From: Candidatus Poribacteria bacterium
Lineage (GTDB): Bacteria; Poribacteria; DTPJ01; WJIO01
Assembly (NCBI GenBank): GCA_014730235.1
Contig: WJIO01000440.1
Coordinates: forward strand, 1 to 6,523
Reading direction: 5' to 3'
DNA length: 6,523 bases
The notes under the pieces were generated by a model. That model was not told the origin of the DNA, made no database searches, and saw only the letters and a list, made by a program, of their open reading frames with translations. Each line of letters opens with the position of its first letter. Positions within the stretch are counted from its first letter, which is position 1. Positions 164 to 5,599 of the stretch are shown piece by piece. The translations under genes and the position numbers were made by a program.

Positions 164-919
164 CTATTTTATAGCTCCCCAGGTTGTAGTCAATTTGCTG
201 TCGGGCTGGACTGGTGAAGTGGTAAGAGGTTCGATGGTAATATTATCAAATTCAGCCTGCTGTGCATAAAGCTGTATACCGACAAAACCACCGGAATAAG
301 AATTATCCTGGGCAGAGATGCTGAGCCCATCTTCACGAGTAAAAGTGAAATTTCCATCTTCAACAATCAAAGTCCAGTGAAGTCTTTCACCTTCTGAATA
401 AGGAATATAGTCATCTTTTACGACTTCAAGAAGCTCGTACCAGGGTTCTTCGTTGCTGATACGTTTTGCTATTTTCATAAAAGGGCCGTCATAACCATCA
501 ACTGAACCAGCGGGCCATACATCATTAATCATGATGGCTCTGTAATGTTCATCAGTATCAGCATAAGCCCATACAAGACCCATACCATCGTTATCAGCGG
601 CTGCAACGTCTACATCCATCTGAAAGTTAGTAAACTGTTCGCCCCTGTAAATTAAGAAGGTTCCCAGAAGGCATGTGTCAGGAGCACTTCCCCAGATGTT
701 TGATCCCTGGAAAAGAACTTTACCGTCAAGACCCAACTGACTGTCGCGAATTTCCCATATACTTGGACCCTGATCACCCAGATTTTCGGGTGCTTCGTCA
801 ATAACTTCCCAATCGGTCATGTCCTCATCTTCAAAATCCAGAACAACGGCCTGGGCTATGCCAGCTATAAACATAACAGCAAGGCAAATAACAGCGATTT
901 TACTGAAATGAGATAACAT
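164..919 (-). CDS. Exported jelly-roll (lectin-like) protein with WG tail
   Basis: A 251-residue protein. Residues 1-24 form a Sec signal peptide ending IAQA, and with no lipobox cysteine it is probably not a lipoprotein. The mature part looks like a concanavalin A-like beta-sandwich. Landmarks are LGDQGPSIWE (47-56), SNIWG (73-77), DNDGMGLVW (109-117), HYR (125-127) and FDN (224-226). The acidic DNDG.G.V segment recalls the calcium-binding part of thrombospondin C-terminal and related glycan-binding sandwiches; this is inferred from motifs only. It is a paralogue of the protein at 1905-2657. The C-terminus SPVQPDSKLTTTWGAIK matches the tails of the two neighbouring exported proteins. ATG start with GAGGAG at 928-933, eight or nine bases upstream. 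It is separated from the gene before it by 196 bp of inverted repeats, so it may have its own promoter. The ligand is unknown. Confidence 0.9.
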   Translation of the reverse strand: MLSHFSKIAVICLAVMFIAGIAQAVVLDFEDEDMTDWEVIDEAPENLGDQGPSIWEIRDSQLGLDGKVLFQGSNIWGSAPDTCLLGTFLIYRGEQFTNFQMDVDVAAADNDGMGLVWAYADTDEHYRAIMINDVWPAGSVDGYDGPFMKIAKRISNEEPWYELLEVVKDDYIPYSEGERLHWTLIVEDGNFTFTREDGLSISAQDNSYSGGFVGIQLYAQQAEFDNITIEPLTTSPVQPDSKLTTTWGAIK

Positions 920-947
920 ATTTTAATCTCCTCTGTTTGTTGGTGGT

Positions 948-1090
948 TTGATTGCTTAATAAGATGTTTTTATAAAAAGCTTAAAACTTAATGTAGGTTG
1001 GGTTTCACATACTCAGCTCAACCTCCATAATTAATTACACATTTTCGATTCCATAAGGAAGATTATAAAAACATCTCATTTGGCAAATAA
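948..1090. repeat. 143-bp imperfect inverted repeat filling the gap
   Basis: Arms 948-975 and 1063-1090 are inverted copies matching at 23 of 28 positions. The inner 14 bases (962-975 AGATGTTTTTATAA; 1063-1076 its complement) match perfectly. The 87-base interior is largely asymmetric and carries a smaller hairpin at 991-1028. The structure takes up most of the 196 bp between two exported-protein genes and ends about 15 bases upstream of the downstream gene's ribosome binding site. It could be a small non-autonomous mobile element, a terminator for the gene before it, or a regulatory cruciform. No clear target-site duplication is visible. The right arm also contains TATAAT on the minus strand (1062-1067), but no good -35 box accompanies it. 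Confidence 0.65.
991..1028. repeat. Small hairpin, decayed GTAGGTTGGGT-type repeat
   Basis: Arms ATGTAGGTTG (991-1000) and CAACCTCCAT (1019-1028) pair at 9 of 10 positions around an 18-base loop. The left arm plus loop reads GTAGGTTGGGTTTCAC, which resembles a palindromic repeat I remember from many bacterial genomes (GTAGGTTGGGTTTC ... CAACCCAACCTAC). This copy would be degenerate, and the comparison is from memory. It lies inside the larger inverted repeat 948-1090. Confidence 0.5.
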
Positions 1091-1115
1091 ATCATTAGGA
1101 TATTAAACCCTAACT

Positions 1116-1892
1116 TTATTTTTTTAATTCTCCCCAGCTTACGGTTAATTTGCTAACCGGTTCTACTGGTGAGGCTTGTTTAATCAGCGAATTAATCTCT
1201 TCTTTTGTAAGTACCCGATCATAGAAATAGAATTCATCCAGTATACCATGCCATGCAGGATATGAATTATCGACGTTCTTACCAGAAGGCTCAGCACCGA
1301 TCATAAAATCCGAGCCATTGGTCGTTACATTACCTTCTCTTGTTCCCTTAGCTTCTTGTTCTCCATCCAAATAGATTATAGCGTCAACGCCGTCAAAGGT
1401 GAGGGTCATATGATACCACGTATCGGTCTTTAATTCTGTAGTGCCGATAACATGCAGATAGTCACCATTTACATGCACCCATGCGGTAGGTACTGCATTC
1501 TCGACGGTAAAGGCATAAGAGCCTCCGTCGGTTTTTGATATAATTGTGCGATAATCACCAAAGTTTGTGGCATTTACCCATGAAGCTATGGTAAATTCCT
1601 TGGCCACACTTAATTCAGGAGTGTCAGTTACCCGGACAAAAGAATTTCCAGGATCAGCTTCACCCAGATCAGCATTAAGAGCCACCCCCATATTAAAGTA
1701 TCCCGGAACTATCTGAGCATCACCTTCTAAAGTGCCGTCTATATTATTTTCTACTTTATTTATAACGGTTAAATCATCCACATTATCAAAGGAGTAGTGG
1801 ATCACTATACCATCTTCAATAGCCGAATTTACGCTTGAAACTGGAAGCAACACAACAAAGACAAAAGAAAGAGCAACAAGAGATCTTTTCAT
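1116..1892 (-). CDS. Exported LamG-domain (concanavalin A-like) protein with WG tail
   Basis: A 258-residue protein. Residues 1-24 are a Sec signal peptide (basic MKR, hydrophobic core, cleavage near VNSA). Residues about 28-235 form a LamG-type jelly roll, probably the Laminin_G_3 subgroup: FTIASWV (100-106), WYHMTLTFDG (159-168), IIYLDGE (172-178), FMIGAEP (196-202) and GILDEFYFYDRVLTKEEI (216-233), the usual closing strand. Such domains bind glycans or proteins outside the cell; the ligand cannot be predicted. The sequence is not obviously related to the two flanking exported proteins, yet it ends in nearly the same tail, SPVEPVSKLTVSWGELKK (241-258). The start lies 12 bases after the stop of the gene at 1905-2657. 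Its weak ribosome binding site AAGGA overlaps that TAA stop, so co-transcription and translational coupling are likely. Confidence 0.93.
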   Translation of the reverse strand: MKRSLVALSFVFVVLLPVSSVNSAIEDGIVIHYSFDNVDDLTVINKVENNIDGTLEGDAQIVPGYFNMGVALNADLGEADPGNSFVRVTDTPELSVAKEFTIASWVNATNFGDYRTIISKTDGGSYAFTVENAVPTAWVHVNGDYLHVIGTTELKTDTWYHMTLTFDGVDAIIYLDGEQEAKGTREGNVTTNGSDFMIGAEPSGKNVDNSYPAWHGILDEFYFYDRVLTKEEINSLIKQASPVEPVSKLTVSWGELKK

Positions 1893-1904
1893 TATAAGGT
1901 TTCC

Positions 1905-2657
1905 TTAATAATTCTTCATATGTCCCCACGAAGATGCCAATTTTCTGTTGGCATCCACAGCCCAGGTATCGGTAATAACCAGATTATCAAAGAATATTCC
2001 ACTCTGAGCATAAACCAGAAATCCGACTTTGCCTGTTTCATATGCGTTATCGGTGGCTTCTAAGGTTAATTTATCATCCACATAAAAACTAAAAGAATTT
2101 CCCGTAGCTTCCAGCCTCCAGTTTTGCGGCTGTCCCTGTACATAAGATTCATCACTTTCATCCAGAGTTTCATAGAAAGGAAGTTCATCGCCGCCATCGT
2201 CACCTAAACGACGTTCCAGCAAGCGATATGGACCTCTTCTGCCATTTGGTGAATTACCCGGGTCGATCATGGTTATATAGCGATAATGATTGTTAATATC
2301 CTCCCATCTCCAAACAAGTCCCATTCCGTCGTTATCGTTAGCAACAACATCAACTTCCAGAATAAAATCAGTCCATTCTTCAAGATCGTATACCACAAAA
2401 CTTCCAATAGCTACTGTATCAGTCGCATCTCCCCATATATTGCTGGATTGGCTCATTGCTGGACCATCAATAGGTGAATCCAATACTTCCCAGGATGATG
2501 GTCCCGGGTCTCCAAGATCGTCTTCATCGTAAACAACCCAGTCTCCATCACCCGGTCCCTGTCCAATTGTTGCATCATCAAAGGTTACCATTAAATCACC
2601 AGAAAGAACCGGAAACGCAATTAGGGCAAAACTTAGTACCGTCAATATAAACTTCAT
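1905..2657 (-). CDS. Exported jelly-roll (lectin-like) protein with WG tail, first of three
   Basis: A 250-residue protein starting MKFILTVLSF; residues 1-20 are a signal peptide (cleavage near VLSG) with no lipobox. The frame is open 36 codons further upstream, but that stretch runs into a hairpin repeat and lacks a signal, whereas ATG 2657 has AGGAGAGG just upstream. It is a paralogue of the protein at 164-919, sharing LGDPGPSSWE (48-57), SNIWG (72-76), DNDGMGLVW (108-116), HYR (124-126), FYETL and YAQSGIFFDN (216-225). A concanavalin A-like sandwich is inferred, with acidic DNDG as a possible calcium site. The C-terminus VDANRKLASSWGHMKNY is a looser version of the tail on the other two proteins. 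It is first in a likely operon with the LamG gene, 12 bases downstream. The binding target is unknown. Confidence 0.9.
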   Translation of the reverse strand: MKFILTVLSFALIAFPVLSGDLMVTFDDATIGQGPGDGDWVVYDEDDLGDPGPSSWEVLDSPIDGPAMSQSSNIWGDATDTVAIGSFVVYDLEEWTDFILEVDVVANDNDGMGLVWRWEDINNHYRYITMIDPGNSPNGRRGPYRLLERRLGDDGGDELPFYETLDESDESYVQGQPQNWRLEATGNSFSFYVDDKLTLEATDNAYETGKVGFLVYAQSGIFFDNLVITDTWAVDANRKLASSWGHMKNY

Positions 2658-2945: not shown

Positions 2946-4229
2946 CTATTTAGATATTATACTAAGGTTTTTGATTTTAATCGTGGGGGTTAAGACTCCT
3001 CCATAATTCCATTCAGTTTTATCTCCGATAGATTCTATGTTATTCAAGGCATGGTAGGTATTTCCTGCAAGCATGGTGTCCTTTACCCGTCCCACCACTT
3101 CACCATTTTCTATCTTGTAACCAAGCTGCACGTTTACGGAGAATTCACCGCTTATGGGATTCCCTTGCCCCAGACCTATTACGCTGTTGACGATCAAACC
3201 TTCTTTTGTATCTTTTATCATTTGCTCGTAGGAAGTGTTACCTGTATCTATAACCAGGTTTGAGGGATTGCATCCCGGGCCGTTTCCCGTTGACTTTGTT
3301 CCCGCTTTTCCGGCTGTTTCCAGATCATACAGGAAATTGACGGCTGTTCCATTTTCAATAAGGGGAGTTCTCTGGTGTGTTACACCTTCGGAATCATAAG
3401 GACCACTGTTATCCGCATAGTCAATCAGAGGATCATCAGTCAGGGAAAATCTTTCATCGGTTATTTTTTGCCCTAACTTTCCAGCCAATGGCGAAGCACC
3501 CAGAAACACATTTTTGCCATTGAAACCCATCCTTAGAGCCAACAAAAGCACATCAATGCTTTGAGGAAGGAAAATCACAGACATTTCACCGGAACTTATT
3601 TTTGCTGTGTTTTCAGCCATTCTGAAGAATTCAACGGCTTTTTCAGCAATAGCTTTATGGTCTACCTCCCGTTTTCGCCAACTGAAACCATGTCCAGCAT
3701 GGAGAATATCTGTTCCCCTTATCCAGCTTCCGTATACATACATACCGAAACCAGTTCCCTGCATGGAAAACTGACAGCCGCTGGAGTTGGCATATTCTGC
3801 ACTTCTGACGCTTTTTTCAACGCCGGAATGTAACAAAATATCGGAATTGTAAGATTTGACTATATCCATCATCTCCTGACTTGTATTAACCATCTCATCT
3901 TTATTCACATCATTGACTGATTCGTCGTATACTTTAACCTCAGGAGCTTCCTGGAAGGGGGGGAAATCAAAGTGGACTTTACTTCCGAACTCGGCCACTT
4001 CCAGAGTGCGCTCCACCAATCCATCAATATCATTGATGTCGGTAGTCTGGGATGAACCCTCTTTACCATCCAGTATTACTCTCAGGTTTATGGCTGTACT
4101 CTGGGAAGATTTCGCCGATTTTAATTTGTCATTTTCAAAGGCAATATCATCGGACTTAATACGACGCAGAACAGCTGAAGCTCCCTGGGCTTTTTTCATG
4201 GCTTTTTCTACGATTTTTTCTACTATCAT
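2946..4229 (-). CDS. tldE: TldE/PmbA subunit of the TldD/TldE peptidase
   Basis: A 427-residue protein, close to the roughly 450 usual for TldE (PmbA). The family architecture is clear: an N-terminal domain beginning with a helix and a region about 40-65 like the TldD N-terminus, then a C-terminal half with YDSEGVTHQRTPLIENG (278-294), FLYDLETAGKAGTKSTGN (299-316), DTKEGLIVNSVIG (340-352), SGEFSVNVQLGYKIENGE (360-377) and AGNTYHALNNIESIG (388-402). Where TldD carries HEAFGH this protein has FLPQSIDVLLLAL (220-232), so it has no metal site and should be the non-catalytic, substrate-shaping partner. In Escherichia coli TldD/TldE matures microcin B17 and degrades the CcdA antitoxin. The start ATG overlaps the tldD stop by one base (TAATG), with GGAGG at 4239-4243, pointing to translational coupling and equal subunit output. 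Confidence 0.95.
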   Translation of the reverse strand: MIVEKIVEKAMKKAQGASAVLRRIKSDDIAFENDKLKSAKSSQSTAINLRVILDGKEGSSQTTDINDIDGLVERTLEVAEFGSKVHFDFPPFQEAPEVKVYDESVNDVNKDEMVNTSQEMMDIVKSYNSDILLHSGVEKSVRSAEYANSSGCQFSMQGTGFGMYVYGSWIRGTDILHAGHGFSWRKREVDHKAIAEKAVEFFRMAENTAKISSGEMSVIFLPQSIDVLLLALRMGFNGKNVFLGASPLAGKLGQKITDERFSLTDDPLIDYADNSGPYDSEGVTHQRTPLIENGTAVNFLYDLETAGKAGTKSTGNGPGCNPSNLVIDTGNTSYEQMIKDTKEGLIVNSVIGLGQGNPISGEFSVNVQLGYKIENGEVVGRVKDTMLAGNTYHALNNIESIGDKTEWNYGGVLTPTIKIKNLSIISK

Positions 4230-5599
4230 TATTGTCTACCTCCCACAACCACGTCCTGAATTCTAATATGAGGCCCACCTATTCCTACAGTCAACCCCGA
4301 CTGACCACCTTTACCGCAGCCTCCGGGACCACCAGGGGCCCATTGTAAGTCGTCGCCTATCATGTCTATATTCATCAGGGTGTTAAAAACATTACCAGTG
4401 AGAACTACATCCCGGATTAACTCACATATCTGACCATCCCGGATCATATATGCATAACCCGCGCTGAAGGTGAACATCTCCATAGTTGTCTGGCCACCGA
4501 TCATGTCAAGGGCATATATGCCAAGTTTTACGTCCTTTATCATATCATCAAAAGCAGATTGACCTTTATTAATATAAGTGTTTGTCATCCTTACTATTGG
4601 TTCATTATGATAAGCCAAAGCCCGGGCGTTACCTGTGACGCTTTCACCCATAGTAGCGGCTGTTTCTCTGGAATGCAATCTGCCTACCAATATTCCGTCC
4701 TTGATAAGATAATTTTGCCGGGTTTTAACCCCTTCGTCGTCGTATTTCAATGTTCCCTGTTGGTCCGGGAAACTTCCATCGTCAATTATATTTAGGTTAT
4801 TTGGGCCGAACCTTCTACCCAGAACCATTATCTCTTTCATACGTTCATTTTCGTATACAAAATCCGACTCGCTGAGGTGTCCAAATGCTTCATGGGCAAA
4901 TACCCCGGTGAGACGAGGGTTAGTAACAACAGTGTATTTTCCCCCCTTAACCGGAGGGGCTGCAAGTAGATCAACAGCACGTTTCGCTGCTTTTTCAGCT
5001 TTTTCATGTAAACCCTCCACCACCTGGAAACCCGCGCTGCTGCCTATGCTTTCACGGCCAGGCTGAATATTATCACCATCCTTGGCTGTGGCGGAAATGT
5101 AGGCGGTGGCATAAGGTCTTTCATCCTCGATATATGTTCCCTCCGTGTTGGCATACCAGATTTTCCTGAAACTATCTCTATACATAACATTTGTGGTTTC
5201 AATTTTTTCATGGTAATTCAGAAGAATATCGTTATACTCCTGTATTACTGAGATTTTTTCTGATAGAGGTATATTACGGAAATCCTTTTCCAGCAGAAAC
5301 CGCGTCATATGTTGAACGGGCTCAACCCTGGCCAGTTTGCTTTTATCCTTACCTATAAGCTTTGCCGACTCGCAGGCCTCCTTAACCCTGACTTTCAGGT
5401 TTTTGAGGTCGTTAAAATCAGCATAACCCCAGGCTCCTTTATACAAAGCCCGAACCATACCCCCAACGGTTTTGGAAGAACCTACGCTATCCAGAGCTAC
5501 TCCCCGGAAGTTGGCCCAGGACTTACTTTCGTCTTCGATACGAATCTCCGCATATTCTACATCGCTCTTTAAAAGAGCTTCTTCCATTTGCTGTCGCAA
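4229..5599 (-). CDS. tldD: TldD catalytic subunit, zinc metallopeptidase
   Basis: A 456-residue protein, near the length of Escherichia coli TldD. The metal motif HEAFGHLSE (236-244) is intact, with H236 and H241 as expected zinc ligands and E237 as catalytic residue. The third ligand is C428 in GGPGGCGKGGQSG (423-435), as in other TldD proteins. Other family signatures are YDDEGVKTRQNYLIKDGIL (286-304), TGNARA (322-327) and TFSAGYAYMIRDG (377-389). With TldE it should form a cytoplasmic heterodimer that cleaves unstructured or modified peptides threaded through it. The best start is TTG at 5599, because AGGAG at 5608-5612 is eight bases away; the next methionine, ATG 5587, would be 20 bases from it. 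It lies 33 bp after the flavoprotein gene and overlaps tldE, so the three probably share a transcript. Confidence 0.96.
   Translation of the reverse strand: MRQQMEEALLKSDVEYAEIRIEDESKSWANFRGVALDSVGSSKTVGGMVRALYKGAWGYADFNDLKNLKVRVKEACESAKLIGKDKSKLARVEPVQHMTRFLLEKDFRNIPLSEKISVIQEYNDILLNYHEKIETTNVMYRDSFRKIWYANTEGTYIEDERPYATAYISATAKDGDNIQPGRESIGSSAGFQVVEGLHEKAEKAAKRAVDLLAAPPVKGGKYTVVTNPRLTGVFAHEAFGHLSESDFVYENERMKEIMVLGRRFGPNNLNIIDDGSFPDQQGTLKYDDEGVKTRQNYLIKDGILVGRLHSRETAATMGESVTGNARALAYHNEPIVRMTNTYINKGQSAFDDMIKDVKLGIYALDMIGGQTTMEMFTFSAGYAYMIRDGQICELIRDVVLTGNVFNTLMNIDMIGDDLQWAPGGPGGCGKGGQSGLTVGIGGPHIRIQDVVVGGRQ

Follow-up and report, generated by a model that had tools for sequence, protein, structure and literature searches.

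A short, portable C-terminal tail on exported proteins of unrelated domains throughout Poribacteria

Introduction

Why should neighbouring genes for exported proteins, not all of one sequence family, end in the same short stretch of residues, and what might recognise that stretch? The question is raised by the window analysed here, which is an entire contig of 6,523 bases from a 5.53 Mb Poribacteria genome and which holds three such genes (Table 1). The tail marks about 100 surface or secreted proteins per genome at once, in a phylum that is known through the genomes of uncultured bacteria.

Results

Three genes of the window share a tail

The sequence-only reading of this window had proposed that three exported proteins carry a common C-terminal tail and that the first and third are paralogous, and both points held: the open reading frames end exactly as described, all three tails fit V-x4-K-L-x3-W-G-x-[IL]-K, and proteins 1 and 3 share 37.8% identity (E 4.6e-45). 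The frame of protein 3 is open from 2765 (ORF 1905-2765), with the start probably at 2657, at MKFILTVLSF. A further claim, that the domains differ, stood for sequence but not for broad fold. Protein 2 matched Laminin_G_3 (E 3.3e-26), the 3keto-disac_hyd model matched proteins 1 and 3 weakly, and Foldseek matched protein 1 to CBM66 and to 3-keto-glucal hydratases; from the weak family match, and from Foldseek for protein 1, proteins 1 and 3 too have the ConA-like jelly-roll fold. Upstream of the three genes lie tldE (pmbA), tldD and a gene for a flavodoxin-like reductase, with the tldE-tldD pair (2946-5599, overlapping at 4229) adjoining the tail genes.

Table 1. Coordinates of the tail-bearing genes and of their tails within the window.
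Feature	Position	Strand	Description
Protein 1	164..919	-	Exported, 251 aa; ConA-like jelly roll (3-keto-disaccharide-hydrolase/CBM66-like) and tail
Protein 1 tail	167..217	-	SPVQPDSKLTTTWGAIK; last 17 codons, stop excluded; pLDDT <50 at residues 235-251
Protein 2	1116..1892	-	Exported, 258 aa; Laminin_G_3 domain and tail
Protein 2 tail	1119..1172	-	SPVEPVSKLTVSWGELKK; last 18 codons; pLDDT <50 at residues 243-258
Protein 3	1905..2657	-	Exported paralogue of protein 1, and tail; a start at 2657 gives the signal peptide MKFILTVLSFALIAFPVLSG
Protein 3 tail	1908..1961	-	AVDANRKLASSWGHMKNY; last 18 codons

The tail recurs at the extreme C-terminus across the genome

Searching the whole genome at the DNA level with the strict pattern K-L-x3-W-G-x-[hydrophobic]-K returned 53 matches, versus 1 for the reversed pattern that served as control. 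All 53, as well as the 30 of 30 matches read from relatives, lay 0-9 residues ahead of an in-frame stop, and this combination of excess over the control and placement at the stop excludes chance. Valine at position -5, which was outside the search pattern, was present in 80 of 83 tails. A 22-column tail profile then hit 134 genomic sites at E <= 10 (about 95 of these at E < 0.01), and reading these loci together with a relaxed motif gave about 125 distinct carriers. The relaxed motif was terminal in 100 of 100 occurrences (ORFs of at least 150 aa in the loci fetched from this genome), a count that is not unbiased in that loci were mostly picked by their tail; the unbiased measure is the genome survey with its 53 strict matches. 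Tails are 16-22 residues long, with the consensus [AP]-V-[EDS]-[PA]-x-[GD]-K-L-[AT]-T-[TS]-W-[GAS]-x-[IL]-K, followed in nearly all by 0-5 residues. All of this evidence comes from assembled genomes, without proteomics. Running a tail profile against the host genome and its relatives was the check proposed at the outset, and it returned many signal-peptide carriers with unrelated domains and the tail at the extreme C-terminus.

The tail is independent of the protein body

Evaluating the carriers by domain revealed Laminin_G_3 in 60 of 103, with others holding 3-keto-disaccharide hydrolase-like, CBM9, F5/8 type C, kelch, cohesin and other domains. The bodies that were left after trimming off signal peptide and tail fell into 27 unrelated sequence clusters. 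Tail identity was 0.47 between body clusters versus 0.45 within them, while the 16 residues upstream of the tail, taken as a control, gave 0.06 between and 0.10 within. Selecting carriers by their tail inflates both tail identities, although it cannot make the two equal, and this equality between and within clusters therefore marks the tail as a portable module. We regard it as nearly certain that this module is real, portable and found across the phylum.

Three smaller observations concern individual domains. A cohesin-domain protein (L034:5100-6833) bears the tail, such that one candidate docking receptor is itself tagged. Among members of alignment A2, 56 LamG-type carriers hit the TafC fimbrial protein model with scores well short of its cut-off, and a single carrier hits Firmicu-CTERM (E 1.8e-4); the TafC and Firmicu-CTERM matches probably reflect body domains.

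Carriers are exported and their tails are predicted to be disordered

AlphaFold2 models of proteins 1 and 2 showed jelly-roll bodies (overall mean pLDDT 87 in one model, 73 in the other) with tails of pLDDT below 50 that formed no strand, being either coil or a 4-residue helical turn. Even so, the tail ranks with the best-conserved stretches of the carrier alignments, and a stretch that is conserved yet unstructured points to recognition by a partner. By a crude hydropathy measure of the N-terminus, a signal-peptide-like start was present in about 97% of 106 carriers versus 39% of other ORFs at the same loci.

We compared the tail with described C-terminal signals, from which it differs in being short, soluble and disordered. 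It resembles PEP-CTERM/exosortase anchors in being a short C-terminal tag on many exported proteins of one lineage, but it lacks their transmembrane segment and terminal arginine cluster and so offers no target for a membrane-embedded sortase: the 0-9 residues after the motif held neither a transmembrane helix with a basic cluster nor any hydrophobic segment. With LPXTG, which marks surface proteins for sortase, it shares only the idea of a C-terminal sorting motif, given that an LPXTG-like motif, a hydrophobic stretch and a positive tail were absent from all tails read. Lacking both a hydrophobic segment and a basic cluster, the tail has the wrong anatomy for membrane-anchor sortase systems, which are thereby excluded, in line with what had been inferred from the letters of the window alone. 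Nor does it resemble the end of an outer-membrane beta-barrel, a beta-strand closing on an aromatic residue: the tails finish with K and a few variable residues, and both modelled bodies are soluble folds. Among the Pfam and NCBIfam matches of the carriers, no model was named for such a tail, and typical tail strings were absent from the literature searched (subscription papers and preprints were outside the search).

The tail is found phylum-wide within Poribacteria

Strict matches were present in all 58 phylum genomes examined (6-107 each, median 68.5), for a total of 3,857 versus 34 in controls. Within one family (f4), the three genomes poorest in strict matches for that family still held 43-95 tails by profile, many with W-A instead of W-G; tail loss in this family, a candidate explanation for its low strict counts, was thereby ruled out. 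Outside the phylum, each of 294 Planctomycetota genomes had 0-3 strict matches, as in the control, 63 of 64 Latescibacterota genomes were at chance level, and genomes of Chloroflexi, Desulfobacterota and Bacillota were at control level. Three of these stray matches were read (L123-L125), and all were internal or in spurious ORFs. The relatives of the window's TldD follow the same division. This protein is 71% identical to that of Candidatus Poribacteria UWMA-0232 and likewise 71% identical to that of a Desulfobacterales-labelled MAG, and among its relatives two Poribacteria-labelled genomes have 82 and 21 strict tails while Desulfobacterota-labelled ones have none, a split that assigns the host of the window to Poribacteria. 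As judged from genome sequences, the tail is phylum-wide and phylum-specific as far as tested, with Bacteroidota not sampled.

One Latescibacterota-labelled genome (G072) has two genuine tail carriers, both on short contigs (L210 on G072:C354 and L211 on G072:C505), which may represent transfer or contigs mis-binned from a poribacterium.

Candidate T9SS machinery is encoded in the tail-bearing genomes

Por-type C-terminal domains were reported in Poribacteria in 2014, when the structural genes for secretion were not found (Kamke et al. 2014, PMC3909097). The SprA and PorV-family genes that we see across the phylum reopen that question. T9SS type A domains were present in 58 of 58 phylum genomes (22-79 each), as was the PorV family, and a single SprA_N match, in a protein of about 2,200 residues that we read as a divergent SprA translocon, was present in 53 of the 58. 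The SprA/Sov protein of the window's own genome (L207:5344-12237, on G000:C368) matched TIGR04189 at E 9.1e-54, its 182 bits falling just short of the cut-off of 200, and has a LysM domain at the N-terminus; it had no match to solved structures at E 0.01, although NCBIfam recognises it as SprA. Four PorV/PorQ-family proteins of this genome scored above cut-off (L299:928-1863, L300:2576-3637, L301:206-1150 and L302:2013-3098). At the last of these loci, the beginning of the PorV-family ORF is overlapped by a small protein whose C-terminal domain is type A-like.

Set against what a T9SS substrate should show, the carriers met the expectation of a Sec signal peptide (97% of 106, by the same crude hydropathy) and of a genome encoding SprA and PorV-family proteins (PorK/L/M/N and PorU were outside the test). 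The expectation of a type A domain was not met. This domain is an Ig-like beta-sandwich of about 70-100 residues, here mostly with a TRKM-like final strand, whereas the tail has fewer than 25 residues and is predicted to be disordered, and none of 103 carriers matched TIGR04183 at E <=0.1, while other proteins of the same genome did. The likeness to type A signals and PorV lies elsewhere, in a C-terminal signal on Sec-exported proteins with many unrelated domains in the same genomes. Known T9SS signals are domains of about 100-235 residues, and in Flavobacterium distinct C-terminal signals use distinct shuttles (PMC12618676); by analogy, it is plausible that another class of signal here has a shuttle of its own. 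No outer-membrane shuttle gene adjoins the tail genes in the window.

Discussion

Taken together, we think it likely that the tail is a C-terminal sorting or docking peptide on about 125 Sec-exported proteins of this genome and on many more throughout Poribacteria, with its partner unproven. The sequence-only reading had suggested a sorting or docking tag with a dedicated partner, and the tag is supported by exported carriers, unrelated domains and the extreme C-terminal position, while the partner remains unproven. As read from sequence and structure prediction, a carrier starts with a Sec-type N-terminus, continues with a folded domain, mostly of carbohydrate-binding type, and then a short linker, and finishes in a disordered end of 16-22 residues, [AP]-V-[ED]-P-x-[GD]-K-L-[AT]-T-[TS]-W-[GAS]-x-[IL]-K-x(0-5). 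What follows in the scheme is inferred. One common receptor, in the periplasm or at the outer membrane, would bind the tail by way of the two lysines and of V, L, W and I, which would serve as hydrophobic anchors, and binding would route the protein across the outer membrane, fix it on the surface, or both. The machine we favour is T9SS, with one PorV/PorQ-family protein perhaps acting as tail shuttle while another serves type A domains; this is an inference that we hold only tentatively and that may well be wrong, as no physical or genetic link was found. The broader proposal, that Poribacteria have an undescribed, phylum-wide minimal outer-membrane signal of about 17 disordered residues, served by a PorV-like shuttle or an unknown receptor in parallel to the T9SS domains, we rate a little short of an even chance. 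The function of the tail could also be retention rather than transport.

Several other explanations deserve weighing, of which the strongest, although still unlikely in our view, is a surface docking tag unrelated to T9SS, whereby carriers cross the outer membrane by another route and the tail binds them non-covalently to a surface receptor, much as dockerin binds cohesin. The shortness, disorder and strong conservation of the tail are those expected of a peptide ligand, the carriers are mostly small lectin-like proteins, and tail length and fold are unlike T9SS signals; dockerins and short linear docking peptides likewise are conserved terminal ligands on varied domains. The tail, however, has no dockerin calcium repeats, and its receptor family was not identified (other outer-membrane routes were outside the search). 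That the tail marks proteins for processing or degradation and is cut off by a peptidase such as TldD/TldE, whose genes sit directly upstream of the tail genes, appears very improbable. TldD and TldE are cytoplasmic in known cases, whereas the carriers are exported, and the tails are dispersed over about 125 genomic sites. No tail gene lies near tldD at the best-matching Poribacteria locus (L107), and TldD/TldE was rejected as a linked partner on that ground.

Even less credible is a cargo-loading peptide for an intracellular compartment of the microcompartment or encapsulin type, which would suit a terminal peptide that is short, perhaps amphipathic, and patterned small/hydrophobic/basic, but not the N-terminal export signal on 97% of carriers. 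The least credible of all is that the tail is merely the last strand of a LamG-type jelly roll, kept by common descent as the frequency of Laminin_G_3 among carriers might suggest. Confinement to one domain family, or an integral jelly-roll strand, would have refuted the initial reading, and neither was seen: kelch, cohesin, F5/8, CBM9 and unassigned proteins also bear the tail, the bodies form 27 clusters with tail similarity equal between and within them, and the models, as far as prediction can tell, place the tail outside the domain as a disordered stretch without a strand. The varied bodies, the cluster identities and the AlphaFold disorder together refute the LamG-strand explanation.

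Returning to T9SS as the possible reader, if this is true the tail would fall well below the length of the T9SS signals known to date and would make a convenient fusion tag. The LamG family offers circumstantial evidence of alternative C-terminal signals, tail versus type A-like domain: with few exceptions the small LamG proteins have a tail or a degenerate tail, and a LamG protein of 956 aa has a T9SS type A-like domain at its end (TIGR04183 score 21.2 against a cut-off of 23).
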